Origin: a virus
IMG/VR virus record: IMGVR_UViG_3300033388_000615
Location: 1 to 64,000 of that record
Direction: 5' to 3' (one strand)
Length of the DNA stretch: 64,000 bases
Position 1 is the first letter of the stretch, and the number at the start of each line of letters is the position of its first letter. The notes below the pieces were generated by a model. It ran no database searches and had not been told where the DNA came from. It saw nothing but the letters and a program-made list of their open reading frames with translations. Shown one piece after another: positions 21,494 to 62,844 of this stretch. Position numbers and translations under genes: made by a program.

Positions 21494-24400
21494 ATGGCTA
21501 AAAAGAAAAATCCATCTCAACCACAAAGTTCTGGTTCATCATCAGTAAATATAAATACGTTTACTAAAGGGATGAACAAAGATGTTGCTCCTTCATTTGA
21601 AGGACAACAAGCATGGTGGCATGCAAGAAATGCAGCTAATAATTCTGAAGATGGTGATCTAGGAATGATTGGTAATGAGCCTTCAAATTTATCATGTGGT
21701 GTCATACCTTATACTGTTATAGGTGCTATACATAGATATGGTGATGAATGGGTTGTATTTTCTACAGATAACGTTAGTTCTGAAATAGGTAGATTTGATG
21801 ACAGCGAATGTAAGTATACTACATTAGTTAATGATCCTTGTTTAAACTTTAGTAAAAAGCATTTAATTGTTGGTGCAGCAAAAGAAAATTTTGATTGTAC
21901 ATGGGAAGTATATTGGGATGATGCAAACAATCCATCAAGAGCTCTAAATATAGATGATATACCTTGGAAAAAAATTCAAATATCTGGTCCAGATATAGAT
22001 GGTTCTGACTGTGTAGAATATGAAATTATTGAACCAAAATCATTAGACTGTGAGCAAATAAGGTTAGCACCTCTTTTAGATACACCCTGCATTACTTTAG
22101 AAAAGTCTATTGATGGCGGAATGTTGGCTAATGGTGCTTATCAAGTTTTTGTAGGCTATACAGAAAATGAACAAAGAGTAACTGATTATATAGGTATATC
22201 TAATATTCAGACACTATGGAATCATGAAGGAACTGGAGGATCATTGGACATAAATTTTTCTAATTTAGATTTAGACTATGATTATTTTGAGTTAGTTATA
22301 TTAAGAAGAAATCAAGGGCAAACCTCAGCAAAAAGAATTGGTTTATATAGTACTCAAGTAAGCACAATAAACATTGACTTTATAGACGAGTCATTATCAG
22401 CTATAGATTTAAAATTGATACCTCTTAGAAGTCCAGCTTATGAAAAGTCTGAATCTATGTTTGTGGTTAATGATTGGTTAATAAGACAAGGACCAACAGA
22501 ACAATTTGATTTTAATTATCAACCTATTGCAAATGAAATAAAAACAAATTGGGTAATTAATTCTGTACCATCTACATATTATTCTAAAGGCGGTAATAGA
22601 ACAGGGTTATTGCGTGATGAACAATATGCATTCTTTATAAGATGGATATATAACACAGGAGAAAGATCTTCATCATATCATATACCAGGTAGAGCACCTG
22701 AAATGTATAATGGGACAATGGAGAACGAAATTATAAATGGTAATAATGTACTAAACCCAACTGGAGATCCTCTTTTTAAAGTATACAATACAGCTTCAAT
22801 TACTTCTACTGCAATAACCGCTTTACCTGATGAAACTAAAATTACTGGTAGAGGTGAAATGGGGTATTGGGAATCAACAGAACTTTATCCATCAAATAGA
22901 CCAGATATATGGGGTGACTTATGTGGTAAACCAATAAGGCATCATAAAATGCCTGATGAATCAATAGGAGGTAATACTTCTCCATTGCATTTAACAAGCT
23001 CAAATGGAGACGAAATAAATATACTAGGGGTTGAGTTTAGCAATATTGGGAGACCTAAATATAATGATGGATCTTACATAGAAAATGTAGTTGGTTATGA
23101 AATACTACGTGGATCTAGATTAGGTGCAAAATCTATTTTAGGAAAAGGTTTATTTAGAAACATGCGTAAGTATACTGTACCAAATGCAGAAAATTTAATT
23201 GGTGGAGATGTACAAGGTTTATATCCTAATTATCCATATAATGATTTAAGACCAGATGTATATTTCCATAAAGGCGGAAATAATATACTAAATAGAACTG
23301 ACGGTGTTCATTCATTTGGTGAATCATTAGATGATTATAAAGCATTAGGAGATGAACCAGATATTAATGGTGAGCCAAGTGGATATTCAAGAAAAGTTTT
23401 TACTTTTTCTTCACCAGAGCTTATGTTTACTAAACCTTTTTTGAATGCATATGAAACTAAAATATACGGTCAGTTATCAGGTAGTGCAAGTGGAACATTT
23501 CAACCATCCGAGGATCATCCTCAATTTAAATTATTAAGAAATGGTGCAGCTATAATATCTGGAGTTATAGGATTAGGTTATGCAATAAGACAAGTAAGGG
23601 GTACTAAAAATGTTAGAAGGGTTGGTGCTGCTGGTAATATGACATCACAGTCAGGATCCTTTGGAGGATTAGCTGGTATTGGTAATCAACCAGGTTTTGC
23701 ACAAGCAGCATATTCTTTAGCAAATGTTGCTGCTAATACTGGTCAATCAGTTATATCAGTACTTCTTGAAGCTTTATTAGATTCAGCTACTGGTGTAGCA
23801 GACTTATGGGTGGGTGGTGCTGCTAATTATGCTACTGAAAAAATTCAGATGGGTTTATCACAAGCTATAGGTAATTTGCCAGGTATGCGTGGTGGTAGTG
23901 AAGAAATAGCATGGACATCAGATAACAACTTTTCATCAATACCTATATTTTTAAAAATATGGATGTCAGCTCAAACTTCTAAAGCTAATATAGCAGCTGG
24001 AGGTAATGAGTTTTTAGAGCTAATATATAACATGCAGTCATCAAATAGTTTTGTCTTAAAACACAATTCATTTGGGTTCTTTAGTAATTTTAATAAGCAA
24101 ACAAATGGTTTATGGAGAATTAAAAATTCAGACTCTAACTATATTGGACAATCATTTCAGACATTTGATAATGGTAACTATAAAATTAATAATTTATTTA
24201 GACCTTCTACAGTAGCTGTAAGTTTAGAAAAAAGTCTTACTGATCCTGATGTAAAAGATAAATCAAGATATACTATAGGTGGATCATTAGATGTATCATT
24301 AAGCTCAGCTGGAGTATATCAAAACTCAAACCCTGCACCACATAGTAACTCATATTTTCAAAAATATAAACAAGCAAGAAAAAGTAATATATCTGCATAC

Positions 24401-27400
24401 TATGGTGCTCTTAAATTTAATTTTGATAATCAGTATGGTCAACTAGATGGTATAAAACAAATACCAATGAGATCTTGCATTCAATTGTTAGATTCAACAT
24501 TACCAAATCAATATATGTATACTAGTGATCCAATTTTTAGTGGAGACACATTTATAGGTAGATATACTGAAAAAACCATAATGCCTATTTTTACAAGATT
24601 TTTATTAGGTCAACCTGATGGTTATACTTTTGATTATTCATTATATGTAAATATACCATATCCAAGATACTGGTTAAACTCACAAAGATTTGATTTAACA
24701 CCTTTAGCACAAAAGTTTGTTACTCTTGGATTAGGTAGTTCAAATGCTGCTACAGCATTGATGCCAAATGATTTATTTTATTTAGATAGAACAAGTAATT
24801 CAACAAACACCTCTTGGGGTAGTATATTTAATAATGGTAGTGATCCTAATCCTGCATTGTCTATGGCATTTGCATATATTTATTCTCATGTAAATGGAAT
24901 CTTAGATTTTTATGTTGAATCAGAAGTAAATTTAGATCAAAGAGATTGGGAAGATGAACCTAAAAAAAGAATCTATAATGTATATGATTATAATGATTTA
25001 AATGAGCTCTTTCATGCAAGAATAGAAAAAGATGATAATTTTTACAAGTATGATGAATCATTAAGTCCAAGTAGATTCCCTACTCAAATGTCATCTTTTG
25101 GTCAAATTCAACCTAGAGATTATGATCCCTATGTTGCAGCAAATTGTTTTGTTAGTTATCCAAAAAGATTAATTTATTCATTACAAGCGCAAGAAGAATC
25201 AAAAAGAGATTATTGGAGAGTATTTTTAAATAACAATTACAAAGATTTTAAAAATGAAGTAAGTGTAATTAAACCTATAAACAAAAGTGGTGCATTAGTA
25301 TTTTTCCCATACTTATCTCCACAAATGTTTCAGGGTCTTGATACACTGAAAACTCAATTAGATACAAAGCTTACTATAGGTGATGGAGGTTTATTTAGTC
25401 AACCGTTTCAAAATGTAGCTAATGCAGACATATCAAATGAATATGGTTCATGTGAGAGTTTAAGAGGTGTTATTAATACACCACTTGGATTATTCTTTAT
25501 ATCTCAACAACAAGGTAAAATATTTCAGTATGGAGGTAAAGGTTTAGATCCTATATCTAATAACGGAATGAAATGGTGGTTTGCTAAATATTTACCTTCT
25601 AGATTTATAAAACAATTTCCAAGTTCAGAAAATACACAATGGACAGATAATCCTGTAGCAGGAGTAGGATGTCAAGTAATGTATGATTCAGTAGATGATG
25701 TAGTCTACTTTATGAAAAAAGATTATCAATTAAAACCTGATTATATTGGTCAAGCAACATTTGTTGATAGACCAGTTAGACCAATAGAGATAAGAGGTGA
25801 GGCAAGAGTGCCAGTAAGTATTGATATTGGTGATCCAATATATTTTGATGATTGTTCATGGACTATTAGTTATGACCCAAAATCTAAAGCATGGATATCT
25901 TTTCATGATTGGCATCCTGAGTTAGCTTTACCAAGTATAAATCACTTCTTTACTACAAAGACTGTTGAGACAACTGTTCCGCAATGTCCTCCGGGTTATA
26001 ATTTTAATCCTAGTACAGGTTTATGTGAAATAGGAATTAATACAACAGAACTTGCAGAAGTTATTGTAGATAACCGTGACTCAATTATATCGGGAGGTCC
26101 TCAAGCATGTCTTATTGATATTGTAGTAGCAATGGATACTTCTGGTAGTACGGGTAACCCACAAAACAATGGGACTAGAGCTTTTGCACAGTTACAATGG
26201 GTGATGTCTTTTGTTGATCAACCAGAAATACAAAATGCATTAAACGGAGGTTCTATGCAAATTGGTTTTACAAGTTGGTCTGGTAATAATCAACAAAGAA
26301 GTTGGACAACTGGAAATGGAGCATTTATTAGCCCTGTTTCAATGTCAGATAATGTTAGTTCTGCTAATGTACAAACTTGGTACATAAATAATTGGTATGG
26401 TGGTAACACTGCAACAGCTGCAGGTATGAACCAGGCAATTAGTTTAGCTCAACAAACGGGATCATCAAGTTTAGCAGCAAATTATCCAGCAAGACAAAAT
26501 GATCCAAGCTATAGAAGAATTGTTATTACTGTTACAGATACTGGTAATAACCCAGGTCCTCAATGTAATTTGCAATCTCCAACAATTCAAACAGTAAGTA
26601 ATGCTGCTCCTAATTTTCAATTTATGTATACTGTATTTTGTGGAGTTAATTCACCTTATCCAGGAGGACCCGGTCAACCTCAAAGTGCAGCTTTAAACAA
26701 TATAGTTTGTCAATATGGTCAAAATATTACTATAACTAGTGGTACAGCTGGATCAACAACTAGTGCTTATATATATGGGATTCAATCTAATATAAATGCA
26801 AATTATCCTATTTCTAATTGGGATGTTGTTGCTCAAGAAATAACATCAAGTATATGTGGTAGTGATTTTGTTTGTGAATGTCCAACAGGATATACATTAG
26901 TTTATCCAGATGCATCAAATGGAAATGTATATGATCAGGCTAGTGGAACATGTAGTGATCTAGAAAATGAAAGACCGATATGTAGGAAAGTTACATGTGA
27001 ATGTCCACCTTCTACTGTACCGGGTTCTGTTTTAACTGAGACAGGTGAATGTCCAGATACACCACCTTTACTTTATCAGATTGGAAATCCAGATTTTGTT
27101 CAATCAAACCCTAAGCAGTGTAACTATTTTTATTATGATTCTTTACAGCCTAATTATAAAGTGGGTGGTTTTTGGAGACACAATGTAAGATGTGACTCTT
27201 TTGCAAATTATTATGGTGAAGACTACCCATGGGAAATAGATTTGATATCTAATACTGGACAAGCGGTTAATACCATAAGAAGTTTTGAATATCAATTAGA
27301 AACTTATGTATATAAAGGAGATCCACAATACAACATGTGTGGTGGAGATAAATGGGAAGATTTAGATTTTAACTTTGATGCTTCTATTATTTATAATAAT

Positions 27401-27781
27401 GATCAAACATCAGGTTTACTATTACTAAATCCACAACCGGTTAACAGCCCTTGGACTAATTTAGATTTTCCTTCTATTGGATTTAATGGTATACAAATAC
27501 TAGTTTCTAAAGTAGAACATAAATTTAGATTTAATCAATTCTGGGATGTGACTAATGATAGAGGTGAGTTTACAAATGCAGAACAACCAATATTTGACAC
27601 ATCATGTAATGGATATATTAGACCTTTAAATCAAACTAACATTAATTACGGTAAAAGTCAAACGGAACGTAAGAAGTTTAGACACTACTCTAATAATGTT
27701 ATTTTACGTAGGAATGTATCAGGCAACAGAAAAATGCTGCTTAGACTTAATAATACTAAACTTTTACTATCACAAAGATAA
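21494..27781 (+). CDS. Giant tail stabilisation/muzzle-type protein with inserted vWA and EGF-like segments (2095 aa)
   Basis: 2095 residues. The N-terminus (NINTFTKGMNKDVAPSFEGQ then WWHARNAANNSEDGDLGMIG) is the conserved opening of the crAss-like tail stabilisation family, in which a beta-propeller-like nozzle forms the tail end. The body to about residue 1490 is beta-rich and aromatic. Residues about 1495-1512 (CPPGYNFNPSTGLCE) look EGF-like. Residues about 1537-1790 are a vWA domain with MIDAS DTSGS at 1548-1552, GGNTATAAGMN as the Thr loop and VITVTDTGNN as the Asp loop. Residues about 1790-1855 are again Cys-rich and EGF-like (CECPTGYTL, CECPPSTVP). A beta-rich 240-residue C-terminus follows. 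It overlaps the next start by one base (TAATG). Probably a tail nozzle that also carries adhesion modules. Confidence 0.75.
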   Translation: MAKKKNPSQPQSSGSSSVNINTFTKGMNKDVAPSFEGQQAWWHARNAANNSEDGDLGMIGNEPSNLSCGVIPYTVIGAIHRYGDEWVVFSTDNVSSEIGRFDDSECKYTTLVNDPCLNFSKKHLIVGAAKENFDCTWEVYWDDANNPSRALNIDDIPWKKIQISGPDIDGSDCVEYEIIEPKSLDCEQIRLAPLLDTPCITLEKSIDGGMLANGAYQVFVGYTENEQRVTDYIGISNIQTLWNHEGTGGSLDINFSNLDLDYDYFELVILRRNQGQTSAKRIGLYSTQVSTINIDFIDESLSAIDLKLIPLRSPAYEKSESMFVVNDWLIRQGPTEQFDFNYQPIANEIKTNWVINSVPSTYYSKGGNRTGLLRDEQYAFFIRWIYNTGERSSSYHIPGRAPEMYNGTMENEIINGNNVLNPTGDPLFKVYNTASITSTAITALPDETKITGRGEMGYWESTELYPSNRPDIWGDLCGKPIRHHKMPDESIGGNTSPLHLTSSNGDEINILGVEFSNIGRPKYNDGSYIENVVGYEILRGSRLGAKSILGKGLFRNMRKYTVPNAENLIGGDVQGLYPNYPYNDLRPDVYFHKGGNNILNRTDGVHSFGESLDDYKALGDEPDINGEPSGYSRKVFTFSSPELMFTKPFLNAYETKIYGQLSGSASGTFQPSEDHPQFKLLRNGAAIISGVIGLGYAIRQVRGTKNVRRVGAAGNMTSQSGSFGGLAGIGNQPGFAQAAYSLANVAANTGQSVISVLLEALLDSATGVADLWVGGAANYATEKIQMGLSQAIGNLPGMRGGSEEIAWTSDNNFSSIPIFLKIWMSAQTSKANIAAGGNEFLELIYNMQSSNSFVLKHNSFGFFSNFNKQTNGLWRIKNSDSNYIGQSFQTFDNGNYKINNLFRPSTVAVSLEKSLTDPDVKDKSRYTIGGSLDVSLSSAGVYQNSNPAPHSNSYFQKYKQARKSNISAYYGALKFNFDNQYGQLDGIKQIPMRSCIQLLDSTLPNQYMYTSDPIFSGDTFIGRYTEKTIMPIFTRFLLGQPDGYTFDYSLYVNIPYPRYWLNSQRFDLTPLAQKFVTLGLGSSNAATALMPNDLFYLDRTSNSTNTSWGSIFNNGSDPNPALSMAFAYIYSHVNGILDFYVESEVNLDQRDWEDEPKKRIYNVYDYNDLNELFHARIEKDDNFYKYDESLSPSRFPTQMSSFGQIQPRDYDPYVAANCFVSYPKRLIYSLQAQEESKRDYWRVFLNNNYKDFKNEVSVIKPINKSGALVFFPYLSPQMFQGLDTLKTQLDTKLTIGDGGLFSQPFQNVANADISNEYGSCESLRGVINTPLGLFFISQQQGKIFQYGGKGLDPISNNGMKWWFAKYLPSRFIKQFPSSENTQWTDNPVAGVGCQVMYDSVDDVVYFMKKDYQLKPDYIGQATFVDRPVRPIEIRGEARVPVSIDIGDPIYFDDCSWTISYDPKSKAWISFHDWHPELALPSINHFFTTKTVETTVPQCPPGYNFNPSTGLCEIGINTTELAEVIVDNRDSIISGGPQACLIDIVVAMDTSGSTGNPQNNGTRAFAQLQWVMSFVDQPEIQNALNGGSMQIGFTSWSGNNQQRSWTTGNGAFISPVSMSDNVSSANVQTWYINNWYGGNTATAAGMNQAISLAQQTGSSSLAANYPARQNDPSYRRIVITVTDTGNNPGPQCNLQSPTIQTVSNAAPNFQFMYTVFCGVNSPYPGGPGQPQSAALNNIVCQYGQNITITSGTAGSTTSAYIYGIQSNINANYPISNWDVVAQEITSSICGSDFVCECPTGYTLVYPDASNGNVYDQASGTCSDLENERPICRKVTCECPPSTVPGSVLTETGECPDTPPLLYQIGNPDFVQSNPKQCNYFYYDSLQPNYKVGGFWRHNVRCDSFANYYGEDYPWEIDLISNTGQAVNTIRSFEYQLETYVYKGDPQYNMCGGDKWEDLDFNFDASIIYNNDQTSGLLLLNPQPVNSPWTNLDFPSIGFNGIQILVSKVEHKFRFNQFWDVTNDRGEFTNAEQPIFDTSCNGYIRPLNQTNINYGKSQTERKKFRHYSNNVILRRNVSGNRKMLLRLNNTKLLLSQR

Positions 27782-30700
27782 TGGGAAAAAGAAAGAGCAT
27801 AGGATTACCAGGAGGACCAAATGAGTTCTTAATAGATATAACACAATATATATCTGTAGATGGGTATAGAAATGATAGCCCAGATAAAACCAATCCGGTT
27901 AATTTCATTCCGTCAGGAAACATAAGCATGAAAGATGTAGACTTTCCTATTATGGGTGTAGATAACCTTGGTAATTCACAAATGATGATGCCTGAAAATG
28001 AATATCAATTTCCAGGTGATATGGTAATGGAAACGCCTATGGCTCAAAATGGTATTGAAGTACCTAAAAGACAAGGTGCTAGAAAAAATCCTGATGGTAG
28101 TGAGTCAACACACCTTATGGCTACTGAAACTTTAGATGGAAAGAACTGGTTTTCATTTCCAACATTATTCCAAGATCCGGATGGTACTTGGGTTGATATG
28201 TCTAATAAACCTTGGAAAGAAGCATATGAAGAAGCTAAAAGAAGAGGTGAGCTTATAGACTTTGGAGCAGATAAAGAAGCTGCTATAAAGTTTGGAGAAG
28301 GTTCTTGGAAACCTAAATTTCAGTTAAGGGGTGAAGTAAATGATATTAAAGGAGTTGTACCTAATCAAGAAAGTGTTGATAATTCATTTCAAAGACAATG
28401 GTTAGATTCACCCATGTATAAAAAAATATTAGCAAATGAAGTTGGTCCAAATGATGATGCTGAATTTATAACTAATAGTAGAATAGGTAATTTACAAAAC
28501 GTACCTATAATAGTAAATCCTAATACACACGAAGATGAAGGTGTAGGTGCAACATCTTGGAGTAAGAATGGTGAACTTGAATTTTTTAAACCATCACATA
28601 CTGATCATGAAGGGCATGTTTATGAAAACACTTTTGAACATGAAGTAGGCCATAGTGGAGATAGAGTTGGAAAAGATACATTAAAAAGATATAAAGATAA
28701 CTTAAGCATTGGAGATAAAATTGCTTTAGCAAATGCTTCACTAAGTACTAGACCAAGCAGTGTAGTTTTACCAAACTATGTTGCTTTGGCAAATCAAGCA
28801 TATAATTATATTACTGGCCAAGAAACAAACGATCTTGAAGATAGGGCTATACAGATATATAAAAACCTTAATTCAGATAGACTTATACCTCAAAAAACTA
28901 TTAAAAGATTTGAAGACGAAAGGGTTAATATAGAGGGGTATGATGATGATGGAAATCCTATAATAAATAATATTGATATAGCAAGCTATGGAACCTATGA
29001 TGCAGATGGTAATCCCATAGTAGCTTTTAATAGAGATGGGTCTGTAAAAGAAGGACAGATAGAAATAGAGAGAAGCCCCTGGGGAGATTATGTTTCTGAT
29101 CCTACTGAAGCTAGAACTAGATTAAATACAATTAGGTCAGCAGCAAAAGATCTAGGAATATATGATCCTATGACTGAGCCATTAACTAGAGAAAAATTTC
29201 AACAAATAATTGATAGAACTTCAGAGTTAAACAGAGGAGAGTCAGATGGTTACAATCCATTAATGCAATTACAGGATGTATATAGTAATGATGAGATTTT
29301 TAATCAATTAAATGAGATTTCATCTGCAGATGACAGCAAAGATAAATTACGGTATGCTCAATCTGGTCTTGAAGTGCTAAATAGATTTTATACACCGGAT
29401 GAAAATGTAAACATTAGATATAATGAGGATGATGTATATGAATCAATATTTGACCCAAGAGTAAGAGAAAAACAATTAGAAAATGATGCAGCACGTAAGG
29501 CTTATCAGATAGAATTGAATAAAAGAAATCAAAGCATAGCAGATATAGAAAAAGCAAAAGAACTTTATAAAGATGTTTGGTATAATCAATATAAAGACAC
29601 AACTTTTAATACAGTTAAAGAAAGAGAAAATTGGCAGGAGAATAATCCGGATTGGCAAAATGCAATACAAACATTAGGAAAGTATGGTAAAGCTAAAGTA
29701 GGTGCAAATCCTGGAGTCAGCAACAAAAGTAACTTAAAACATATACCATACTTTGATCCAGCAGCTGATTTATCAGATCAATATCCTGAGATGCCTGTTT
29801 TAAAATTACCGCATGATATTAAATATAATTTATCAGACTTACCATCTGATGTAGATGAAAGTGTATTTAGACAATGGATAAACAAATATTATCCAGATTA
29901 TGCTGAAAATAACAAAATTGATAGTTTTACATCTATTAAAAATAATGACACTATTAAAAGTGCATGGTATGAACTTGGACATCAATTTATAGAAAAGCCA
30001 GAGTTAAAACCTTTACAAAAGCTGATGTCTGATTTTGACATGAATGATAAGCCTCCACTTTCAGAACCTGTAAAAAAATCTAAAAGTCAATTAGTATCTA
30101 TAAAAACAGGTGACGGAAGGATTATAGTGCGTGATATAAGTACCGGTGGAACTATAGGAATATATGATTCTGAAGAAAAGGCTAAGCTTGCTATGAGCGG
30201 AGTAGACAATGAAGATATAATAGATTATTATGGTCCATCAAAATGGAAACCCAATAGCAAACAAATAGATACACAGCAAAGAATTAATAAACTCTACCAA
30301 AGAGGAGGTAATACATTAGATGATGCAGTAATACCAGTTTTAAAAGGTGCTGCTGAAAAAGCAGATAGCTTTAATGATTGGTTAGGTAAAAAAACTAAGG
30401 ACATACTTAATCCAGAACTTGATCTTGAAACTAGATTTAAAATATTTCAAGAAGTAAGACCTGAAAGTTATCCTGGTTTTGGCAGCATTACTAAAGAAGC
30501 ATTTGGTGCAATAGGTAATGCACTGGGTATAACAGAACCAACAAAACCCTTGTTTGATTCTGATGGTGATTATGATTTTTCTGAAGAAGCATGGGCACGT
30601 GCGCTTGGTCTTAATCCTAAAGAAAAATATATACAAAAGCAAACAGAATATTCACCAACCAATTCAAAAGAGGAAGGAGTGCAATATTATAAAATATCAG

Positions 30701-33700
30701 ATGATATACTTGATAGAGAAAGTATGATATCAGACTTTAAAGATCTCCCTATAGGATATAAAGAAACTGTTGATGGCTTAGCGGGTTACATGAAAGAAGA
30801 TTATTGGAGTAAAACTGAAGATGGTTCTGATGGTAAAGTAACACCAGAACAATTTATGAATATTGATCCATTACAAAATTTTCAAGTTGAGGTAGGTTAT
30901 GACAAAGCAAAAGATCAGAAATATCTTTCTATATATGATAAGTATGATTTTAACAGTATAGCAAATGCAGCCATAAAACCATATGAGTTTTATGATAGAA
31001 TCTATATCCCTAAAGACTCTGATAAAAAGGTAGAAAATAAAAATAGTATTAACCCTAATCTATTGTATAAGCAAGCTTTTGTTGAATCTAACTTAAATCC
31101 AAAAGCTAAAAGTAGTGCAGGTTATATGGGTCTTGGTCAAATAGGAGATAGTCTTATAGCAGATTATAAGAAAGCAAAAAATGTTAAAGAAATAGATCCA
31201 TATGATCCTGAACAAAATCATGATGTCCAAGAATGGTCTATGAATGAATTGTATAACTCATCATTTATAAATAAGGAAAATCAAGATCAAGATGTAAGAT
31301 TGATTAAAACACTAGCAGCATATAACTGGGGTAGAGGTAATACAAGAGATTTGCTAAATGAATTAAAAGAAGAAGGTCTGGATATATATAATGATGTTCA
31401 ATGGGTTTCTAGATTACCTAAAGAAACTCAAGATTATATTGATATGATTTTGTTTGATAAAAATACAGAAGGCAGACCTAATGTACAGGAAAATTTTCTA
31501 AAGACAACTACTGATGAAGCATATGATTACTATAAGCAATTATATAAATATCAAGATGATCTTCCTGAAAAACAATTTGCTGGACCTGTGAGAGAAAATG
31601 AGCAAGAAGGTTATGACTATAGTCAATTATGGATGCCATCTAATTATGTTGAAGAACTTCCAGAATTAAACTCTTCTTTTGTTGGCCCTTTACGTGAACC
31701 AGAAAAACAAAATGAAAAACCAAAAGAAGAATTAAATATATACACTGTAAAGTCTGGAGATAACTTAACTAGAATAGCAGATAAATATGGAACTACTGTA
31801 GATGAGATAGCTGAGTTAAATGATATAGCTAATCCGAGTAAGATTTCAATAAATCAAGAAATAAAATTACCAAAGAGTAAAACTAAATATGCTTTTTATG
31901 ATGTAAAGTCTGGTGATACTCTTGGAAGAATAGCAACTAAATATGGTACAACAGTAAGAAAGTTAGCACAAGAAAATGATATATCTAATATTAATGAAAT
32001 TTTTGTTAATCAAGAACTAAGGATACCTCAAGATTCATATGAACCAGTAGATGAAATTGAAGAAACTTGGCAAGATGTTGAGCTGTTGGATCAGGATAGA
32101 AGAAATATTAATGATTCATCTGATGAAGATATTATAAAAAAATCACAAATGGTTAATGATCCAAATGGTCATTATGTTATAGTAAACAAAAAAACAAAAA
32201 GATTAGAAGTTTGGAGGGGTGGCAAACCAGTATTAGATTTTGAAGTTCTTACAGGTGCTAATGAAGGTGATGCTTTAACTGTAACAAAAATGTGGGATTT
32301 GAATAATGATGGACAAATAACAGATGAAGATAAAAGAAATGGTAAGTGGATTCCTAATTGGAGTGCCGGTAATAAAAATACAGGTGCTGGTAAGTATTAT
32401 ATAAAAGAAAGTTATGCTGATTCACCTGATAAATATGGTGGTAAAGGTGTTCCTTCATTTAATTTATATACAGATGGTACTGATATAGATGTAGCTACAG
32501 CTATTCATGGACCCACAAAAGGTAGAAAAGGTTTATTTGATGATGGTAATATAGATAATAATAGAGCAAGTAATGGCTGTGTAAATGGTCAATGTAGTGA
32601 TTTGCAAGCATTATATGATTTAGGAATGCCAGCAGGTACAGCAGTATATATATTACCAGAAGATGAAGGTAATAATTTCCAATGGGTTGATGGACAAGCT
32701 GTATTAAAAATGTCTAAAGATAATAGAGAAAAATATGCATCTAATTATATTGACTCTAAAGGTAGTGAGCAAACTCAACAAGGATCTAACTATACTGTAA
32801 ACACATTAAACTATCAACCTATACGTCCAGTGTTTGATCAACAGGCTTTTGAAGAAGATGTGTATAATGAAACAGGAGGTTTAAAATCTGTTGGTAATTT
32901 CTTTACGTCAGATACATCAGATAAAGAAGAACAAGAAAATTCAACAAAGCCATTTATAAATGCTTTAGTAAATAACAAGAAACAAATAATGCAAGAAGCA
33001 GGTATACCTAGTGATGTATATAATGATATTGCTAGAATTGCTTTTGGTATTTATGGTAATGAATCTAATTTTGGTGACACGCATAGTAAATCAGGTAACC
33101 TTTTAAGAGGAGCCAACAAATATGTTGCTGACCTAAATAAAAAAGGTCAATTGCCAGTAGTAGGTTCAACTAATCTGTTACCTACTGTAACTTCATCTCC
33201 TGATGTGTTTAAAAAATATGAAGGTTTTACATTAGATACCACTAATCAGTTATCAAATGTTTCTCCTTTATTAGCAATTGCAGCACAATCATCAAATATT
33301 AACTTACCAACTTATTCTAAAAGTGCACAAGAAGATTATAATAGTGTTGGGTTAACTCAGCTTAGATGGGAAAATATAGCTAAAGAAGATAAAAACTTAC
33401 CAGAAAATAAAAAACAAATAAATATTTTAAAGAAATTTGGAATAACATCTAATAAAGATTTGTTAGATCCTGAGAAAGCAGCAATTGCTACTGTGTTAAG
33501 ATTAGCATTTTTAGCTAACAATAGAGAAGGTGTAGATAGAAATGATTTGTTTAATACTCTTCCTAAACATTGGGGTGGTTCAAGCAAAGATGACGGTAAG
33601 ACATATACTGAAGGAGTTAAGAAAAATGCTAAATATTTGAAATTTCAGCAATTGGGTAAGTACATGCCAGATTATAAAATAGGTGGAGAAAAGAAAAAGC

Positions 33701-33867
33701 TTCAGATGTATAAAGATTATATGGATGGAATATATGATGGTACTAATGAAGAAGCTAAAGCTAAAAGTATATATGATAAATTAAATAGAAAACATTATAA
33801 AGATGCAAAAGAGTTAGGAAACATGTCTCCACCAAATTATATTTTGACTCATCTTTATAAAGCTTAA
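27781..33867 (+). CDS. Virion cell-wall multi-enzyme: zincin motif, transglycosylase, two LysM, L,D-transpeptidase, second lysozyme-like domain (2028 aa)
   Basis: 2028 residues. Residues about 75-185 hold a conserved crAss-like segment (STHLMATETLDGKNWFSFPT). HEVGH at 287-291 is an HExxH zinc-peptidase motif. Residues about 1088-1230 form a lytic transglycosylase/lysozyme fold with putative catalytic Glu1102 (FVESNLNPKAK), GYMGLGQ and AYNWGRGN. LysM repeats are at about 1321-1364 and 1372-1416 (YTVKSGDNLTRIADKYGTT and FYDVKSGDTLGRIATKYGTT). A YkuD-type L,D-transpeptidase domain at about 1464-1627 has IHG with His1576 and SNGCVNG with Cys1600. Residues about 1735-1930 hold a second lysozyme-like domain (IYGNESNFGD with Glu1761, SVGLTQLRW). 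It is translationally coupled to the muzzle gene. Likely role: local peptidoglycan binding and cutting during genome entry. Confidence 0.85.
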   Translation: MGKRKSIGLPGGPNEFLIDITQYISVDGYRNDSPDKTNPVNFIPSGNISMKDVDFPIMGVDNLGNSQMMMPENEYQFPGDMVMETPMAQNGIEVPKRQGARKNPDGSESTHLMATETLDGKNWFSFPTLFQDPDGTWVDMSNKPWKEAYEEAKRRGELIDFGADKEAAIKFGEGSWKPKFQLRGEVNDIKGVVPNQESVDNSFQRQWLDSPMYKKILANEVGPNDDAEFITNSRIGNLQNVPIIVNPNTHEDEGVGATSWSKNGELEFFKPSHTDHEGHVYENTFEHEVGHSGDRVGKDTLKRYKDNLSIGDKIALANASLSTRPSSVVLPNYVALANQAYNYITGQETNDLEDRAIQIYKNLNSDRLIPQKTIKRFEDERVNIEGYDDDGNPIINNIDIASYGTYDADGNPIVAFNRDGSVKEGQIEIERSPWGDYVSDPTEARTRLNTIRSAAKDLGIYDPMTEPLTREKFQQIIDRTSELNRGESDGYNPLMQLQDVYSNDEIFNQLNEISSADDSKDKLRYAQSGLEVLNRFYTPDENVNIRYNEDDVYESIFDPRVREKQLENDAARKAYQIELNKRNQSIADIEKAKELYKDVWYNQYKDTTFNTVKERENWQENNPDWQNAIQTLGKYGKAKVGANPGVSNKSNLKHIPYFDPAADLSDQYPEMPVLKLPHDIKYNLSDLPSDVDESVFRQWINKYYPDYAENNKIDSFTSIKNNDTIKSAWYELGHQFIEKPELKPLQKLMSDFDMNDKPPLSEPVKKSKSQLVSIKTGDGRIIVRDISTGGTIGIYDSEEKAKLAMSGVDNEDIIDYYGPSKWKPNSKQIDTQQRINKLYQRGGNTLDDAVIPVLKGAAEKADSFNDWLGKKTKDILNPELDLETRFKIFQEVRPESYPGFGSITKEAFGAIGNALGITEPTKPLFDSDGDYDFSEEAWARALGLNPKEKYIQKQTEYSPTNSKEEGVQYYKISDDILDRESMISDFKDLPIGYKETVDGLAGYMKEDYWSKTEDGSDGKVTPEQFMNIDPLQNFQVEVGYDKAKDQKYLSIYDKYDFNSIANAAIKPYEFYDRIYIPKDSDKKVENKNSINPNLLYKQAFVESNLNPKAKSSAGYMGLGQIGDSLIADYKKAKNVKEIDPYDPEQNHDVQEWSMNELYNSSFINKENQDQDVRLIKTLAAYNWGRGNTRDLLNELKEEGLDIYNDVQWVSRLPKETQDYIDMILFDKNTEGRPNVQENFLKTTTDEAYDYYKQLYKYQDDLPEKQFAGPVRENEQEGYDYSQLWMPSNYVEELPELNSSFVGPLREPEKQNEKPKEELNIYTVKSGDNLTRIADKYGTTVDEIAELNDIANPSKISINQEIKLPKSKTKYAFYDVKSGDTLGRIATKYGTTVRKLAQENDISNINEIFVNQELRIPQDSYEPVDEIEETWQDVELLDQDRRNINDSSDEDIIKKSQMVNDPNGHYVIVNKKTKRLEVWRGGKPVLDFEVLTGANEGDALTVTKMWDLNNDGQITDEDKRNGKWIPNWSAGNKNTGAGKYYIKESYADSPDKYGGKGVPSFNLYTDGTDIDVATAIHGPTKGRKGLFDDGNIDNNRASNGCVNGQCSDLQALYDLGMPAGTAVYILPEDEGNNFQWVDGQAVLKMSKDNREKYASNYIDSKGSEQTQQGSNYTVNTLNYQPIRPVFDQQAFEEDVYNETGGLKSVGNFFTSDTSDKEEQENSTKPFINALVNNKKQIMQEAGIPSDVYNDIARIAFGIYGNESNFGDTHSKSGNLLRGANKYVADLNKKGQLPVVGSTNLLPTVTSSPDVFKKYEGFTLDTTNQLSNVSPLLAIAAQSSNINLPTYSKSAQEDYNSVGLTQLRWENIAKEDKNLPENKKQINILKKFGITSNKDLLDPEKAAIATVLRLAFLANNREGVDRNDLFNTLPKHWGGSSKDDGKTYTEGVKKNAKYLKFQQLGKYMPDYKIGGEKKKLQMYKDYMDGIYDGTNEEAKAKSIYDKLNRKHYKDAKELGNMSPPNYILTHLYKA

Positions 33868-57066: not shown

Positions 57067-60000
57067 ATGGCTAAATGTTATAATAGAAATGATCCGGGAT
57101 ACCAAGCATTAAAGGATGAATATGGTACTGATATCAAAACATCTAAAGTTATTAGTGACTGGCAACGTGTTAATGATTCTGATGCGTTTCCTAGTGTTGT
57201 CCAAGCTCAGACTATGGTTAAAGACCAAGATATTGCATTCTCATTAAAAAGAAAAGCATTTGGAGAAAGCGTGCTCAATAATTTAAGAAGAGAAAGAATA
57301 GGTAGCAATTTAGCAGGGCAGTTTTTAATTAATAATTCAAATCCTCAGACATTATCATATGATGAAGCTTTTTTACAAAGTAATCTAAAAAGGTTTTACA
57401 GATACTTAGAAATTAATAACATACCAAAAGATTCATTTACAGTAACAAGAACGCCAAAAAGCTATAAGATTGAACCTAACAATAATATGTTCTCTGCTAG
57501 AGATATACTTGAAAGTTCAAGATCATGGGACACCAATAGATCAAGAGCGGTTGTTATGCATCTTAAAAGAATGTTTCCACAGATACAAGTTAAAATGTTA
57601 TCTGTTGCACAAGCAAGAGTAATGTATGAATCATTACCAAAAACTAAAACCAATAACGTTCCTTTTAATGAGATAAATTCTTTTTATATGGATGGTGTAG
57701 CTTACTTAATAAAAGGTAGGGTCACAGATGAAATAGCAATTGAAGAAATGTTGCATCCTTTTATAGATGCAGTAAAGATGGAGAATGAAGAATTATTTAA
57801 CTCACTTCTTGATGAAGCAGTAAATAATTTTCCAGAACTATCAGCAGAAATTGAAGATGCTTACAATAGTAGTACAAGAAATTTTACAGATACAGAAAGA
57901 GATCTTGAAATTGTAACACAAGCATTATCAAGACACTTCAAAAAAGAATATGAAACAACACCTACAAAAGGATTCCTAGCAAAAGTTAAAGAACTTCTTG
58001 AGTGGTTTAAAGGAGTAATTGAAAACCTTAATAAATATATTACTGGTAGAGAGTTACCTGTATCTGCTATTAAACCGGGTACAAGTCTAAGTGATATTGC
58101 TAAACTACTTAATACGGAAGGCATTCAGTTTAAACTAGAAAAAAGAGTTGACGGTAAATTAAGATATAGTTTATCACCATCTAAAGAAATACAAATCAAA
58201 GATGCACTAGAAAGAGCTAATGATACGCAGAAGCCTATTATAATGCAGCTATTTAATGTAGCACAGAGTGAAAACTCTGGTCTTGTTGATTCTCTGTCAG
58301 CGTCAGTAAAAGATGCAGCTGCTGGAGATTCAATTGTAACACTTAATAAAGAAGATCATACATATATAAATTCTAATGATTCTGATAAAGTATATACATC
58401 AGTAACCACAGCTATAAAAGGAAAACTTTCACCAGATAAACAAGTTGCTCATAAGATTAACTTGGATATTGGTAATGAGGTTGACACACTATTAGATGGT
58501 GTTATTGCTAATCTTTCTTTTGAAGATGCATATGCTGCACTAGAGACAAATAACATATCTAAAGATAAAGCTAAAGATACTTTTGATACTCTTGCTAGTA
58601 TTATGGATAGTTTAAAAATGAAAGGTGCAATTGTGTTATCTCAAGTTGTTTTGTTTGATGAAGCTTCTAAGATGGCCGGTACTGCAGATGTATTTATTAT
58701 AGATCAACATGGTAGAATTAACATCATGGATCTTAAGACTACAAAAAATGAGTTAAGTAAAGAGGTAGCTTTAAATGATAAAAAAGGAAAGCGTATAGGA
58801 AATCAATATAAAGAAAGATTTTACGCCTTAGAACAAGACTCAGTGTTATATCAACAAGGATTAGCAAAAGAATTATCAACAGAGCAACAGCATAACTTAC
58901 AAGTTAATGTATATAGAAGAATGGCTGAAAATATGGGGTATGAAGTATCTTATGATGAATGGGCCACCTCTACAATACACTTTAAAGTTGGTATAGAAGG
59001 AACAGGATCTGATCAAGTGTTTGATGGATCAATTGAATTTGATAGATGGGTCCCTCATCCTGTAAGTCAAAATCTTAATTTAGTAGATGCTCTTGTACCA
59101 GAAGTAAGAAACTCCTATCAAAAAAGTAGATTAGAAAAAGATCAAGAAGGTTCATACAATAAAATATGGAATGGTAAAGACCAGAAAGAGGAAACAACTG
59201 AAGATGATAAAAAAGCAGCAGAAAACTATGATGAATATAATGCTGCAGCTGGTTTACTAGATACATATCAGAAAGCACTTATTGAGAAAAGGGATATGAT
59301 TCCTTTGTTGAAGTCTAATATATATATGGAATCAACAAAAGAAAATGAAATTGATCAAATATCTAAAACAATAGCATATATAAACTTAGCTATGGCTGGT
59401 AGTGTTAAAGGCCAATCAAAAGCTTTGTCTGAAGTTTTGCTTGATGCTTTATCTCAAATAAAAGATTTTAGAGCTTATGTAGAAAATCCTAAGAATATAA
59501 ATTCTCCTGAATATGTTTCTTATGTTTTAAACTTTGATAAGTATATGAAAACGTTTGAAGGGCTTTTTATACTTAAAGATTTAAAAGGTTTAAATAATAC
59601 TCAAAAGAATTTAATTTTATCATTACAACAACAACTTAATTTACTTAGTGGTGCTGGCACTGACACAGGAGGAATAGTAGGTGAAGCACTAAAAGACTAT
59701 GTTAAAGAAATGGTGAGGCTAAAATCAAATAGAGATTTTGGTGGTGAAAATAGTTTATATACTGAAAAAGACTTAGAGCTTTTGATGGAAAAAGCTGCAG
59801 ATATCAGTGACACTGAATATCAAACTAAAGATATGGCAACATCTCCAGATGTACTATTGGCTACAATGGATAAAATAAGAAAAGCCCAAAATCAAAAGCT
59901 ATTAGATCTTGTGGCTCAAAGAGAAAACCTTATAAGAACGGCTGGACAAAAGCTTGCAAAGTTATCACCTGAATTAAAACTTGACGAGTTATATAAATTC

Positions 60001-62844
60001 ATGTTAGAGTATGATGCAGACGGTACTTTTAATGGTAGATATGTAACAAAAATAGGAGAACAATATTGGGCTATACAAAATGAACTCAGAAGTCAACTTT
60101 ATGATAATGAAGGTACACCATATCAATACAGACCTGTTTATGATTTAGAAACAGCAAGTCAGGAAGATATAGAATACAATAAAGATCTAGCTGCTAAAAA
60201 GAAAGCATATGGAGATTTTTATATGGCTGAGCAAAAAAGAGATGATGGTACATTACGTCCTTCAGGTATGTATCACAAGTACACCCAAGAGTTTATTGAT
60301 ATCAGAAATAAATATGAAGTGTGGAGACCCGGTGCTGAAACTAATCAAAGAGGAAGTTGGGAAAAGAAAAAAAATATTTCAGATGCAGACTATGCAGCTT
60401 ATGTTGCAAAATATTATCAGCCGGTTGAATATACCAGAGCTGTAAGAATAAAGGGAGAGGCAACAGGACAAATTATAGAAGACCGTCAAGATATGATGGT
60501 GCCTAAAGCAGAGTATAGACAAATACTAGAAACTACCCTTGATGGACGTAATATGAGAAACGCCAAGTATGATGCCATAATGAGCGGTACTGACGCAAAA
60601 TCTGTAGCCCAAAGGGAGTTTTATCAATTATACATAGATATGTATGAGAATGACTTGCTTAAGAAAATACCTATTGGGCAAAGTGCACAAATGTTGGGTA
60701 GAGTTCCTTTAGTACAGAATAGATTGATGTCTGATGTAAAAGAGAAAGGAACTTTGTTTACCAAGCTATATGCTAGTATGACAGAGAGTAGGGCTTGGAA
60801 TATGTTTCAACAAACCTCTACTCAAAAAAATGTTATACTAGATAATGAGGGTTATATTATTGATCAAATGCCTATCTACTATACCGGTAGACCTAAGCTT
60901 GATACTGATATGGCTGATTTACAAAAAGAAATTGATCTTCTTAAATCAAAGTATAAAAAGAATGAAATCCAAGATCAACAGTATAAAAAGCAAATAGCTG
61001 TATTAAATGGTAAAATGGTAAGGCTCAGAGCAACACCAAGTAGAGGACAGATTAGCACAGATATGGCATCTAGTTTACTTAAGTTTAGTGCAATGGCTCA
61101 AAACTATGAAACAATGGGCGCTGTAGATGATACCTTAAAAGCTTTTGTTAAGGTAATTGAAAACAGAACATATACTCCTGCTCCTGGATTGAGATTAAAT
61201 CTAGTAGCAAAAGTAAAAGATAAAGTTGTAGATAATTTAGGTACTAAAGCTAATACAAGTACTCAAGAAAAAAATGTAGTACGTAGAGCAAAGAAGTTTA
61301 TGTCTATGATTCATTATGAAAATGAAAACATTACTAAGGGTGCTGTAGATAAAATTGCAGATGGTCTTATTCAGTTGTCTTCTTTATCATATGTAGCGTT
61401 TAACCCATTTGGTAACTTTAATAACTACTTGATTGGTAGAATAAATAACAATATTGAATCTATTGGTGGTAGATTTTATAGTCAAAAGGCATTTAAAAGA
61501 GCAACCTGGGAATTTAATAAGAGAGCTATTCCAGGATTAGTCAATAGAACAGCACATGGTGGTGCAGAAGATTTACTTGACGTAGTAACATTAGGTGTTA
61601 TACCAGGATTAGCTAAAGCTGACTATGATAAAAAATTACCTAATAGTAAGTATGAAGCTTTTGTTGATATGTTCAGAATGATGGATAGTATGTCTGATAT
61701 ACGTGAACAAAGTAGAGCTACTGAAGATGGTAAGAGTTGGTTTGATAGAGCAACTGAGTGGGGTTACGTGATGCAAGATGCTGCTGAATATAATTCACAG
61801 ACCAAAGTGGGTATGGCTATACTTATGGACACTATGATTAGAAATAGTAAAACAGGAGAAGAGCTGTCATTTTATGATGCATTTGAATACGATACAAAAA
61901 CACATAAGAATAAAATTAAAGATGGTTTTGATATAGTAATCAAAAGAAATGGACAAGAAGTAGCTTATAATGATGATATAAGATATGAAATTAGAAATGA
62001 GATTAGAGAAGTTAACAAACAAATTCATGGTAACTATGCCAAGGAAGATAGAATTGTTCTTCAGTCACATACACTTGGTGCATTAGCTATTCAATTTAAA
62101 AAGTGGTTGGCTCCAGCAATTAGAGCAAGGTATCAAAGAGAATACTTTGATGAAAATCTAGGATGGATGGAAGGTAGATATAGATCTGCTTTATCATTCT
62201 TAAATTTTGCAAGAAAAGAGTTGGCTCAAGGTAATATGAACTTTAGAACAATGGGTAAAGAATACCTAAACCAACAAGTCAGAGCATATACTAGTGAAAA
62301 GTTTGGAGAAGCAAGAGATTATGGTGGAGGGGGTAACATAGATCAAAGAGCTAAGAATAGACTATTTGGTTTCTATAGAAGTATGGGTGATTTAGGTATC
62401 ATGTTTAGTGTTATGTTTATTTCTTTGCTATTTGATGATTTATTATCTGGTGATGATGATGATAGTGATACTGAAAAGAGATTTAAAAATTTAACAAGAT
62501 ATCAAGCAGATAGAGTATATAAGGAACTTGTTTTATTCATGCCTTCTTTTGCAGGGTTTGAACAGGTAGAGCAAATGTTTAACTCACCTATTGCTGCATC
62601 AAGATCAGTAAGTGAAATGTCTGAAGCTTTTGAAATGATTTTTGTTGGAGGTTTCAAATATACAATGGCTAAAGCAACCGGAAATGAAGAAGCATTTTAT
62701 GCTAATTCTAATTATGTATATCAAAGAGGTAAAAGAAAAGGAGAATTAAAGGTATATAAAAACATTAAAGATGTATTCCCACTACTATATTCTATTCAGA
62801 AATGGGATTCATACCTTAAAAACTCTGATTTCTATATTAAGTAA
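57067..62844 (+). CDS. Giant virion protein with degenerate zincin-like and RecB-type nuclease domains (1925 aa)
   Basis: 1925 residues. Residues about 200-300 resemble the zincin region of the preceding gene, but the motif reads EEMLH (226-230), so the first metal His is lost; the helix with VTQALSRHF remains. Residues about 435-630 fit a PD-(D/E)XK nuclease of the RecB/Cas4 type: Asp541 in GTADVFIIDQHG, Asp555-Leu-Lys557 in INIMDLKTTK, and a QxxxY motif Gln612-Tyr616. The rest is long and helical. Near residue 1770 a hydrophobic stretch (GIMFSVMFISLLF) is followed by an Asp run. It follows the polymerase by 15 bases and is the last of the late block's giant genes. It is probably injected; the nuclease may process incoming or host DNA. 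Confidence 0.7.
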   Translation: MAKCYNRNDPGYQALKDEYGTDIKTSKVISDWQRVNDSDAFPSVVQAQTMVKDQDIAFSLKRKAFGESVLNNLRRERIGSNLAGQFLINNSNPQTLSYDEAFLQSNLKRFYRYLEINNIPKDSFTVTRTPKSYKIEPNNNMFSARDILESSRSWDTNRSRAVVMHLKRMFPQIQVKMLSVAQARVMYESLPKTKTNNVPFNEINSFYMDGVAYLIKGRVTDEIAIEEMLHPFIDAVKMENEELFNSLLDEAVNNFPELSAEIEDAYNSSTRNFTDTERDLEIVTQALSRHFKKEYETTPTKGFLAKVKELLEWFKGVIENLNKYITGRELPVSAIKPGTSLSDIAKLLNTEGIQFKLEKRVDGKLRYSLSPSKEIQIKDALERANDTQKPIIMQLFNVAQSENSGLVDSLSASVKDAAAGDSIVTLNKEDHTYINSNDSDKVYTSVTTAIKGKLSPDKQVAHKINLDIGNEVDTLLDGVIANLSFEDAYAALETNNISKDKAKDTFDTLASIMDSLKMKGAIVLSQVVLFDEASKMAGTADVFIIDQHGRINIMDLKTTKNELSKEVALNDKKGKRIGNQYKERFYALEQDSVLYQQGLAKELSTEQQHNLQVNVYRRMAENMGYEVSYDEWATSTIHFKVGIEGTGSDQVFDGSIEFDRWVPHPVSQNLNLVDALVPEVRNSYQKSRLEKDQEGSYNKIWNGKDQKEETTEDDKKAAENYDEYNAAAGLLDTYQKALIEKRDMIPLLKSNIYMESTKENEIDQISKTIAYINLAMAGSVKGQSKALSEVLLDALSQIKDFRAYVENPKNINSPEYVSYVLNFDKYMKTFEGLFILKDLKGLNNTQKNLILSLQQQLNLLSGAGTDTGGIVGEALKDYVKEMVRLKSNRDFGGENSLYTEKDLELLMEKAADISDTEYQTKDMATSPDVLLATMDKIRKAQNQKLLDLVAQRENLIRTAGQKLAKLSPELKLDELYKFMLEYDADGTFNGRYVTKIGEQYWAIQNELRSQLYDNEGTPYQYRPVYDLETASQEDIEYNKDLAAKKKAYGDFYMAEQKRDDGTLRPSGMYHKYTQEFIDIRNKYEVWRPGAETNQRGSWEKKKNISDADYAAYVAKYYQPVEYTRAVRIKGEATGQIIEDRQDMMVPKAEYRQILETTLDGRNMRNAKYDAIMSGTDAKSVAQREFYQLYIDMYENDLLKKIPIGQSAQMLGRVPLVQNRLMSDVKEKGTLFTKLYASMTESRAWNMFQQTSTQKNVILDNEGYIIDQMPIYYTGRPKLDTDMADLQKEIDLLKSKYKKNEIQDQQYKKQIAVLNGKMVRLRATPSRGQISTDMASSLLKFSAMAQNYETMGAVDDTLKAFVKVIENRTYTPAPGLRLNLVAKVKDKVVDNLGTKANTSTQEKNVVRRAKKFMSMIHYENENITKGAVDKIADGLIQLSSLSYVAFNPFGNFNNYLIGRINNNIESIGGRFYSQKAFKRATWEFNKRAIPGLVNRTAHGGAEDLLDVVTLGVIPGLAKADYDKKLPNSKYEAFVDMFRMMDSMSDIREQSRATEDGKSWFDRATEWGYVMQDAAEYNSQTKVGMAILMDTMIRNSKTGEELSFYDAFEYDTKTHKNKIKDGFDIVIKRNGQEVAYNDDIRYEIRNEIREVNKQIHGNYAKEDRIVLQSHTLGALAIQFKKWLAPAIRARYQREYFDENLGWMEGRYRSALSFLNFARKELAQGNMNFRTMGKEYLNQQVRAYTSEKFGEARDYGGGGNIDQRAKNRLFGFYRSMGDLGIMFSVMFISLLFDDLLSGDDDDSDTEKRFKNLTRYQADRVYKELVLFMPSFAGFEQVEQMFNSPIAASRSVSEMSEAFEMIFVGGFKYTMAKATGNEEAFYANSNYVYQRGKRKGELKVYKNIKDVFPLLYSIQKWDSYLKNSDFYIK

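Follow-up and report, generated by a model that had tools for sequence, protein, structure and literature searches.

Accounts of how phages enter cells usually deal with cutting of the wall alone. Internal virion proteins of the T7 gp16 type (PHROG 342) are large products of the structural block that include an SLT transglycosylase domain, and to our knowledge gp16 has this single wall enzyme, with no YkuD, LysM or second lysozyme fold. Cellular YkuD L,D-transpeptidases (Ldts) are wall-building enzymes of cells; Bacillus subtilis YkuD also has a LysM beside its YkuD domain, and we know of no lysozyme-like partner in these enzymes. In phage crAss001, the gene following the muzzle gene gp44 encodes cargo protein gp45 (C1), which cryo-electron microscopy located in both tail and capsid and which was proposed to be the first protein ejected and to help form a transmembrane channel, with no wall enzyme mentioned in the available passages of that account (PMC10172136). 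Here, we describe a gene in a 64,000-nucleotide stretch of viral DNA (the window), positions 1 to 64,000 of IMG/VR record IMGVR_UViG_3300033388_000615, a 65,034-base virus record that is probably a fragment. The gene (27781..33867, plus strand) encodes a multi-domain protein of 2028 amino acids (aa) that appears to be an exchangeable entry protein pairing wall-cutting enzymes with a cross-link-building enzyme type. Like crAss001 gp45, other crAss-like post-muzzle proteins and the "tail lysozyme" of csAssE-Sib, which are encoded either next to the muzzle gene or a few genes downstream of it, it belongs to the cargo/tail block. A YkuD fold also enters a second bacterium and modifies the wall there in the case of the type VI secretion system effector Tlde1a, which differs in being a toxic effector with no virion and, in the available text, no glycan-cutting partner (PMC9638812).

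The protein is a chain of enzymatic and binding domains, all encoded on the plus strand in one open reading frame (ORF). An N-terminal anchor (residues 1-91, 27781..28053; GLPGGPN...GDxVxExPMAQxG) is followed by a HEVGH zincin-type motif (residues 287-291, 28639..28653) and by an SLT domain (residues 1083-1196, 31027..31368; Pfam PF01464, E 1.8e-15) with a catalytic-type glutamate, Glu1102, a residue present in 15/15 aligned SLT copies. Two LysM repeats come next (residues 1321-1364, 31741..31872, the better-scoring copy, and about residues 1373-1415, 31897..32025; Pfam PF01476, E 9.1e-31), then a YkuD domain (residues 1464-1624, 32170..32652; Pfam PF03734, E 5.3e-10, scoring 40.5 bits against a curated cut-off of 23.4) with catalytic His1576 (32506..32508) and Cys1600 (32578..32580), the latter in the motif SNGCVN. 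A probable lysozyme-superfamily domain, Lyz2 (residues 1736-1970, 32986..33690), and a C-terminal anchor (residues 1972-2025, 33694..33855; IYDKLNRxHYKDAK) complete the chain. A sequence-only reading of the window had proposed that cutting, binding and a YkuD fold are combined in a single virion protein. Profile search bore out the transglycosylase, both LysM copies and the YkuD domain within this one frame, His1576 and Cys1600 lie exactly at the positions named, and domains and gene position together support such a combination within a structural module. As in virion-associated lysins, the chain holds a wall-cutting domain, here the SLT domain of PF01464. Three further IMG/VR contigs with three metagenome identifiers (L002-L004) carry the same ORF unbroken at 98.7-100% full-length identity; the 2028-aa frame is therefore not an assembly join, and a chimera was excluded.

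The YkuD assignment was supported by fold. A structure prediction covering residues 1439-1975, with a predicted local distance difference test score (pLDDT) of 74, aligned its YkuD part to B. subtilis YkuD (1y7m) with Z 12.1 and a root-mean-square deviation of 2.2 over 110 residues, and also to mycobacterial Ldts; a Foldseek match to an Ldt had an E value of 7.3e-05. The domain shares its fold and His/Cys centre with 1y7m, Enterococcus faecium Ldtfm (3zg4) and Mycobacterium tuberculosis LdtMt2. In a sequence-profile search of the PDB no stretch was significant by itself, the sole match being Ldtfm at E 0.34, a weak match that served only to read the residue two positions after the catalytic Cys (Cys+2), Asn1602 in the window protein. 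A single-sequence PDB search returned one weak xylanase match, apparently spurious. A chance YkuD match was excluded by the E value of 5e-10, the fold match and the catalytic residues, kept in 40/40 viral loci. Within YkuD, an EF-hand-like loop, DLNNDGQITDED (residues 1506-1517, 32296..32331), of the DxNxDGxIxxxD type is inserted in 10/17 phage copies and was not seen in three aligned copies from Bdellovibrionota (see below). If such a loop made the enzyme calcium controlled, it could switch on outside the producing cell.

Relatives were gathered by whole-protein, N-terminal anchor (best 80 of 147) and LysM-YkuD searches, together with regions from isolates. This gave 105 ORFs with the N-terminal anchor, repeats of one contig included, of which 93 were complete; clustering at 85% left 58 representatives. 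These range from 173 to 2688 aa, the first ~91 residues being kept while the middle is exchanged, and the C-terminal anchor (the last ~55 residues) occurs in 47 of them. In one extreme case (L009), 86 N-terminal residues are shared with the window protein at 84% identity in a protein of only 409 aa, with an HExxH motif and no notable Pfam domain. Our own profiles found SLT in 15 representatives, LysM in 23 and YkuD in 17; Pfam found SLT in 15, LysM in 23, YkuD in 16, PG_binding_1 in 6, ART-PolyVal in 2, DUF6782 in 2 and Phage_lysozyme in 1. Three of the 17 YkuD representatives (L097, L099 and L104) were reached solely by the search with YkuD, and two of the 58 are isolates; if all five are set aside, 14/53 have YkuD. 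In 56/58 representatives the muzzle gene is the immediate upstream neighbour; one gene separates the two in Cellulophaga phage phi4:1, and no muzzle was in reach in L069. Polyvalent phage proteins also join many unrelated enzymatic domains in one string, and two of the 58 representatives carry ART-PolyVal; unlike polyvalent proteins, the present cassette is rich in wall enzymes and stands behind a fixed N terminus after the muzzle gene. The gene after the muzzle is thus a practical handle for reading the wall-entry toolkit of such crAss-like genomes. AQxG-type motifs, a possible protease site, were recurrent and scattered.

The same slot suggests a recurrent metallopeptidase-like part. HExxH occurs in 22/58 representatives, some of them interrelated, whereas 500 shuffled sets averaged 0.48 and never exceeded 3, and Pfam matched the metallopeptidase family DUF6782 in two representatives; the HExxH segments of the window protein, L020, L097 and L009 had no metallopeptidase match in Pfam. 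The zincin proposed by the sequence-only reading therefore stands as a motif, present here and enriched among relatives, and not as a matched family. HExxH was found in several different sequence contexts among the representatives (e.g., L076, L038 and L064), which suggests that more than one metallopeptidase-like domain is among the exchanged contents of the slot.

Wherever YkuD occurs in the slot, Lyz2 accompanies it. Lyz2 is the next domain downstream in 17/17 YkuD representatives, 77-103 residues past the YkuD match, and partial Lyz2 matches without YkuD were seen in L048, L058 and L084. A viral scan with a two-domain alignment yielded 40 loci with both domains in 40/40, the query itself being two-domain; many are near-copies, leaving 24 phage rows after de-duplication. 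The N-terminal anchor was detected in 31 of these loci, two lie directly behind a muzzle ORF, one is cut at a contig end and six are anchorless, five of the latter encoding proteins of 615-661 aa and one a protein of 1850 aa. His1576, Cys1600, Glu1761 of Lyz2 and one Gln were conserved in all 40 loci. A tblastn search with the YkuD-Lyz2 unit had no match among 50,697 records of isolate phages and none among 72,556 of plasmids. Whole-protein tblastn against isolate phages matched 180 records, and among the matches listed (40) all fell on the LysM stretch; the LysM-YkuD query matched 126 records, and among the matches listed (40) these were to LysM, some reaching the start of YkuD.

Lyz2 itself (~1736-1970) had no Pfam match, and its assignment is by predicted structure. 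Modelled alone (pLDDT 76.6), it aligned best with MltC (Z 9.5 over 134 residues), Slt, Tse3 and a GH23-type chitinase (Z 9.5-8.2), and 39 of the top 40 structure rows were lytic transglycosylases, lysozyme-type effectors, chitinases or endolysins, the other being an unnamed phage protein; by the tool's own warning, Z below about 13 in mostly helical models is doubtful and may reflect a common helix arrangement only. Foldseek with Lyz2 alone returned nothing under E 1, and hhalign of Lyz2 against SLT was not significant (probability 0.8%, E 0.07). The second lysozyme-like domain of the sequence-only reading is thus a probable lysozyme-superfamily fold by its model, and no Pfam family. Its glutamate, Glu1761, lies in an ES..G ... 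GxTQ setting and is itself invariant in the 40 viral loci and in 22/22 Bdellovibrionota rows; by analogy this residue is the putative catalytic one. The family, which lacks a Pfam entry, is thus conserved across phages and bacteria together with this Glu.

Gene position places the protein in a crAss-like structural module. Its start codon begins at the last base (27781) of a gene for a crAss-type muzzle protein, the tail-end gatekeeper (2095 aa, 21494..27781, plus strand), identified by tblastn and profile matches. With a profile built without the isolates, this upstream gene matches the csAssE-Sib "Muzzle protein" (1.3e-119) and phi4:1 gp042 (2.3e-120); crAss001 muzzle gp44 was matched only after iteration. 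Other window genes match crAss001 gp40 (4.3e-07) and gp43 (3.2e-04), and a large downstream gene (57067..62844, plus strand) is a relative of the RNA-polymerase-associated cargo protein gp49 of crAss001 (E 4.9e-23 with a single-sequence profile and a set database size of 1000). By its muzzle, ring/hub and RNA polymerase-subunit relatives, the phage is crAss-like. The N-terminal anchor is also found in phi4:1 gp040, which, like gp042, was annotated from tandem mass spectrometry of virions, and in the gene directly after the muzzle of a Leptolyngbya phage. The SLT region has a match at 1.1e-10 to PHROG 342, a family named "internal virion protein with endolysin domain". Because of the post-muzzle position and the anchor shared with gp040, the protein is likely located in the virion, and we regard its role as a virion wall-entry protein as highly probable. 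In the Leptolyngbya phage, the cyanophage isolate Lbo-JY46 (L105:16566-18053), a crAss-type muzzle is followed by an N-anchor protein whose end gives a weak transglycosylase-like match; the slot is therefore not confined to phages of Bacteroidota.

Outside phages, the YkuD-Lyz2 pair was seen in Bdellovibrionota only, among the genomes covered here. A scan of all species genomes with two short patterns, which would miss diverged copies, gave five loci: one phage contig (L110, see below) and four in Bdellovibrionota (Halobacteriovorax, a Bacteriovoracaceae, a Bdellovibrionales and a Bdellovibrionaceae metagenome-assembled genome [MAG]). In three of the four, a single protein joins YkuD to Lyz2 through a homologous linker, in the phage order and, in three aligned copies, with the same catalytic motifs; the fourth has Lyz2 alone. 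These proteins differ from the phage ones in being about 940 aa long and exported-looking, and the phage anchors were not found in them; the two complete ones (948 and 940 aa) start with signal-peptide-like stretches, as judged by eye. A phage-only profile at 1e-10 or better then matched 28/280 genomes of Bdellovibrionota, counted at the level of the phylum that is home to Bdellovibrio-type predators, against 1/289 in a control phylum, that of a Pseudomonadales-labelled MAG; the search covered these two phyla, and Bacteroidota, the likely host phylum, lay outside it. The sole control match is a 114 kb contig in that MAG (L110, WLWP01000004.1), which bears a muzzle, the N-anchor and the C-anchor and is a crAss-like phage contig, probably mis-binned into a bacterial genome. 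Parts of both domains are spanned in one frame by 11 of the 28 Bdellovibrionota matches. With Bdellovibrionota rows added to the profile, the counts were 68/290 against 1/299, many of the matches covering Lyz2 and not the whole of YkuD. Among the 22 best-scoring Bdellovibrionota rows, which include one duplicate (L114 and L119), the YkuD His/Cys pair is kept in 14 and the Lyz2 Glu in all 22.

A 41-sequence tree, built without an outgroup and hence silent on the direction of transfer, separated its 24 phage rows from its 17 Bdellovibrionota rows by a single 100/100 branch, which excluded a recent transfer from a predator. Judged from these sequences, YkuD-Lyz2 is rather a shared unit long parted between phages and Bdellovibrionota. 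The swappable cassette behind a conserved N terminus, the constant pairing of YkuD with Lyz2 and the presence of the pair outside phages had all been overlooked by the sequence-only reading.

We tentatively favour the explanation that the entry protein cuts the wall and that YkuD, as a transpeptidase, re-links peptide stems around the cut. In the sequence of events that we infer, covering virion location, ejection, all enzymatic activities and the bracing purpose, the conserved end or ends would hold the protein in the virion, from which it would be released with the first cargo, before the DNA, into the host periplasm. The LysM repeats would dock it on peptidoglycan, and SLT and Lyz2 would cut glycan strands, opening the way for an ejection channel. 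YkuD, beside Lyz2, would then act on the peptide stems as an L,D-transpeptidase and form 3-3 links around the cut, which would keep the hole small or close it and let the cell live long enough to be infected. For the YkuD step taken by itself, this predicted activity is a possibility that we put forward with some reserve. Transpeptidation with bracing or resealing was favoured because of the Asn at Cys+2 and the YkuD-Lyz2 unit of Bdellovibrionota. In Bdellovibrio, the prey entry pore is given a peptidoglycan collar and sealed, and LD-transpeptidases reinforce the prey (reviewed in PMC10482364); the pair shared with relatives of such predators is thus a hint that the opening made at entry may be reinforced or repaired by the virus. 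LD-crosslinks were also reported to approximately halve the activity of two exogenous lytic transglycosylases in vitro, one of them the lambda endolysin, whereas lysozyme and a muramidase were not hindered (PMC11390936), so a transpeptidase beside two cutters could confine the hole. More tentative still is the wider view that the phage carries its own wall-mending enzyme, with a predator-like port braced or closed by L,D-transpeptidation, and that YkuD-Lyz2 is a dedicated invasion unit of crAss-like phages and predatory-type bacteria, held in an exchangeable post-muzzle slot. If true, virion-borne wall joining would be an addition to the usual picture of entry and relevant to the question of how the thin Gram-negative wall can be crossed by a large podovirus while the cell stays whole. 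It would also connect the entry of phages with that of predators via a shared, testable enzyme unit. The combination of domains, the constant pairing and the link to predators would surprise a specialist.

The main alternative, which we consider rather unlikely, is that YkuD is a stem-trimming hydrolase, an LD-carboxypeptidase or a 3-3-link endopeptidase, that aids the two glycan cutters. Csd6, Pgp2 and Bd1075, all among the structural matches of the predicted domain, act as LD-carboxypeptidases, as was shown both in vivo and in vitro for Bd1075 (PMC8938487). Tlde1a, which is injected into rival cells, combines LD-carboxypeptidase and exchange activities in a YkuD fold (PMC9638812), and the remaining recognised catalytic parts of the chain are wall cutters. 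The fold does not discriminate between the two chemistries, because in structure alignment the scores of B. subtilis YkuD and of several mycobacterial Ldts equal or exceed those of the LD-carboxypeptidases. At Cys+2, Csd6/Pgp2/YafK-like enzymes have Ala and Bd1075 has Val, and most LD-transpeptidases are named with Arg (PMC8938487). The viral loci have Asn in 39/40 and Arg in 1/40, rather than the Ala, or the Val of Bd1075, that marks LD-carboxypeptidases and relatives that cleave lipoprotein; Ldtfm, a genuine transpeptidase, likewise has Asn (SHGCIN, compared with SNGCVN in the phage). YkuD is followed by the probable lysozyme-like domain where LD-carboxypeptidases have an NTF2-like domain, though no search was aimed at NTF2. 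Sequence cannot choose among the hydrolase, resealing and covalent attachment that the sequence-only reading had put forward; the Asn at Cys+2 and the Bdellovibrionota pair lean toward transpeptidation with bracing or resealing, and no observation favoured covalent attachment.

Several observations weigh against re-linking as the role of YkuD, or against the wider view. The transpeptidase chemistry is a prediction, and YkuD folds also include LD-carboxypeptidases and an exchange enzyme. LD-crosslinks would hinder the SLT domain of the same chain, making the protein self-limiting or self-defeating. YkuD is absent from 41/58 representatives and is therefore accessory or dispensable, and it shares a chain with SLT in only 7/17 YkuD proteins. 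Nonsynonymous divergence (dN) was lowest in YkuD among six regions when compared with the close and mutually related homologues L017, L020 and L021 (dN 0.036-0.045, with synonymous divergence [dS] 0.49-0.51), whereas against the distant L033, L061 and L097 the N-terminal anchor had a lower dN than YkuD in 3/3 comparisons and the C-terminal part in 2/3. No similarity to crAss001 gp45 was found with the N-anchor profile, the whole protein or a one-round whole-protein profile. In Bdellovibrionota, 17/28 matches do not cover both domains, mostly being Lyz2 only, and 8/22 rows lack the YkuD catalytic pair while retaining Lyz2; the pair proteins there are uncharacterised and are not identified with the LDTs studied in Bdellovibrio.

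An improbable alternative is superinfection exclusion, in which LD-crosslinks made by YkuD toughen the wall of the infected cell against phages that use lytic transglycosylases. More LD-crosslinks were reported to lower plaque numbers of lambda and P2, with P1, T4 and T5 unaffected (PMC11390936), but cargo copies are few (up to 12 estimated for gp45 per crAss001 virion, PMC10172136) and are probably too few for a quick change of the whole sacculus, and the protein's own SLT would suffer as well. Less probable again is that this is a late-made lysis enzyme of the endolysin kind. Endolysins too carry LysM, transglycosylase and YkuD domains; set against this are the post-muzzle position in 56/58 representatives and the N terminus common to a virion protein annotated by mass spectrometry. 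Of the six anchorless pair loci, five are unplaced, and the remaining one, L176, has its pair gene just ahead of a gp49-like RNA-polymerase cargo gene. Ldts attach Braun's lipoprotein to diaminopimelate in enterobacteria, and acyl transfer onto a protein amine lies within YkuD chemistry, so YkuD could conceivably couple the ejected channel or the particle to a diaminopimelate residue, a fused enzyme being able to act on its own chain; with the phage anchors not found in the searched Bdellovibrionota copies, we regard this covalent attachment as very improbable. A catalytically dead YkuD that only binds stems is the least probable of all: some Bdellovibrionota copies have lost His or Cys and kept Lyz2, but both residues are kept in all 40 viral loci, and YkuD has the lowest dN of the six regions against the three close homologues.

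The combination had been thought to have no described phage counterpart. No phage virion protein with it was named in titles or abstract starts among the matches listed from the open-access literature, no paper with both "crAss-like" and "transpeptidase" was found in the open-access literature searched, and the isolate-phage tblastn of YkuD-Lyz2 agreed. The claim holds for the combination and not for its YkuD part, since a few phage lytic proteins are already known to contain YkuD: there are 10 in PhaLP (PMC8310338), and others appear in PMC5017753 and PMC13284279. This, too, weighs against our reading.

Some neighbouring features of the window were also recorded. Residues ~1538-1788 of the muzzle protein resemble by eye a von Willebrand factor A domain (DTSGS, like a metal ion-dependent adhesion site [MIDAS]), and this stretch is possibly an adhesin. 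Between the post-muzzle genes and the gp49-like gene, where crAss phages encode giant cargo proteins, lies a 4607-aa ORF (43228-57051) that had no Pfam or PHROG match. Finally, positions 11152-14142 encode a 996-aa tail-fibre-like protein with PHROG matches to collagen-like and other tail-fibre proteins.

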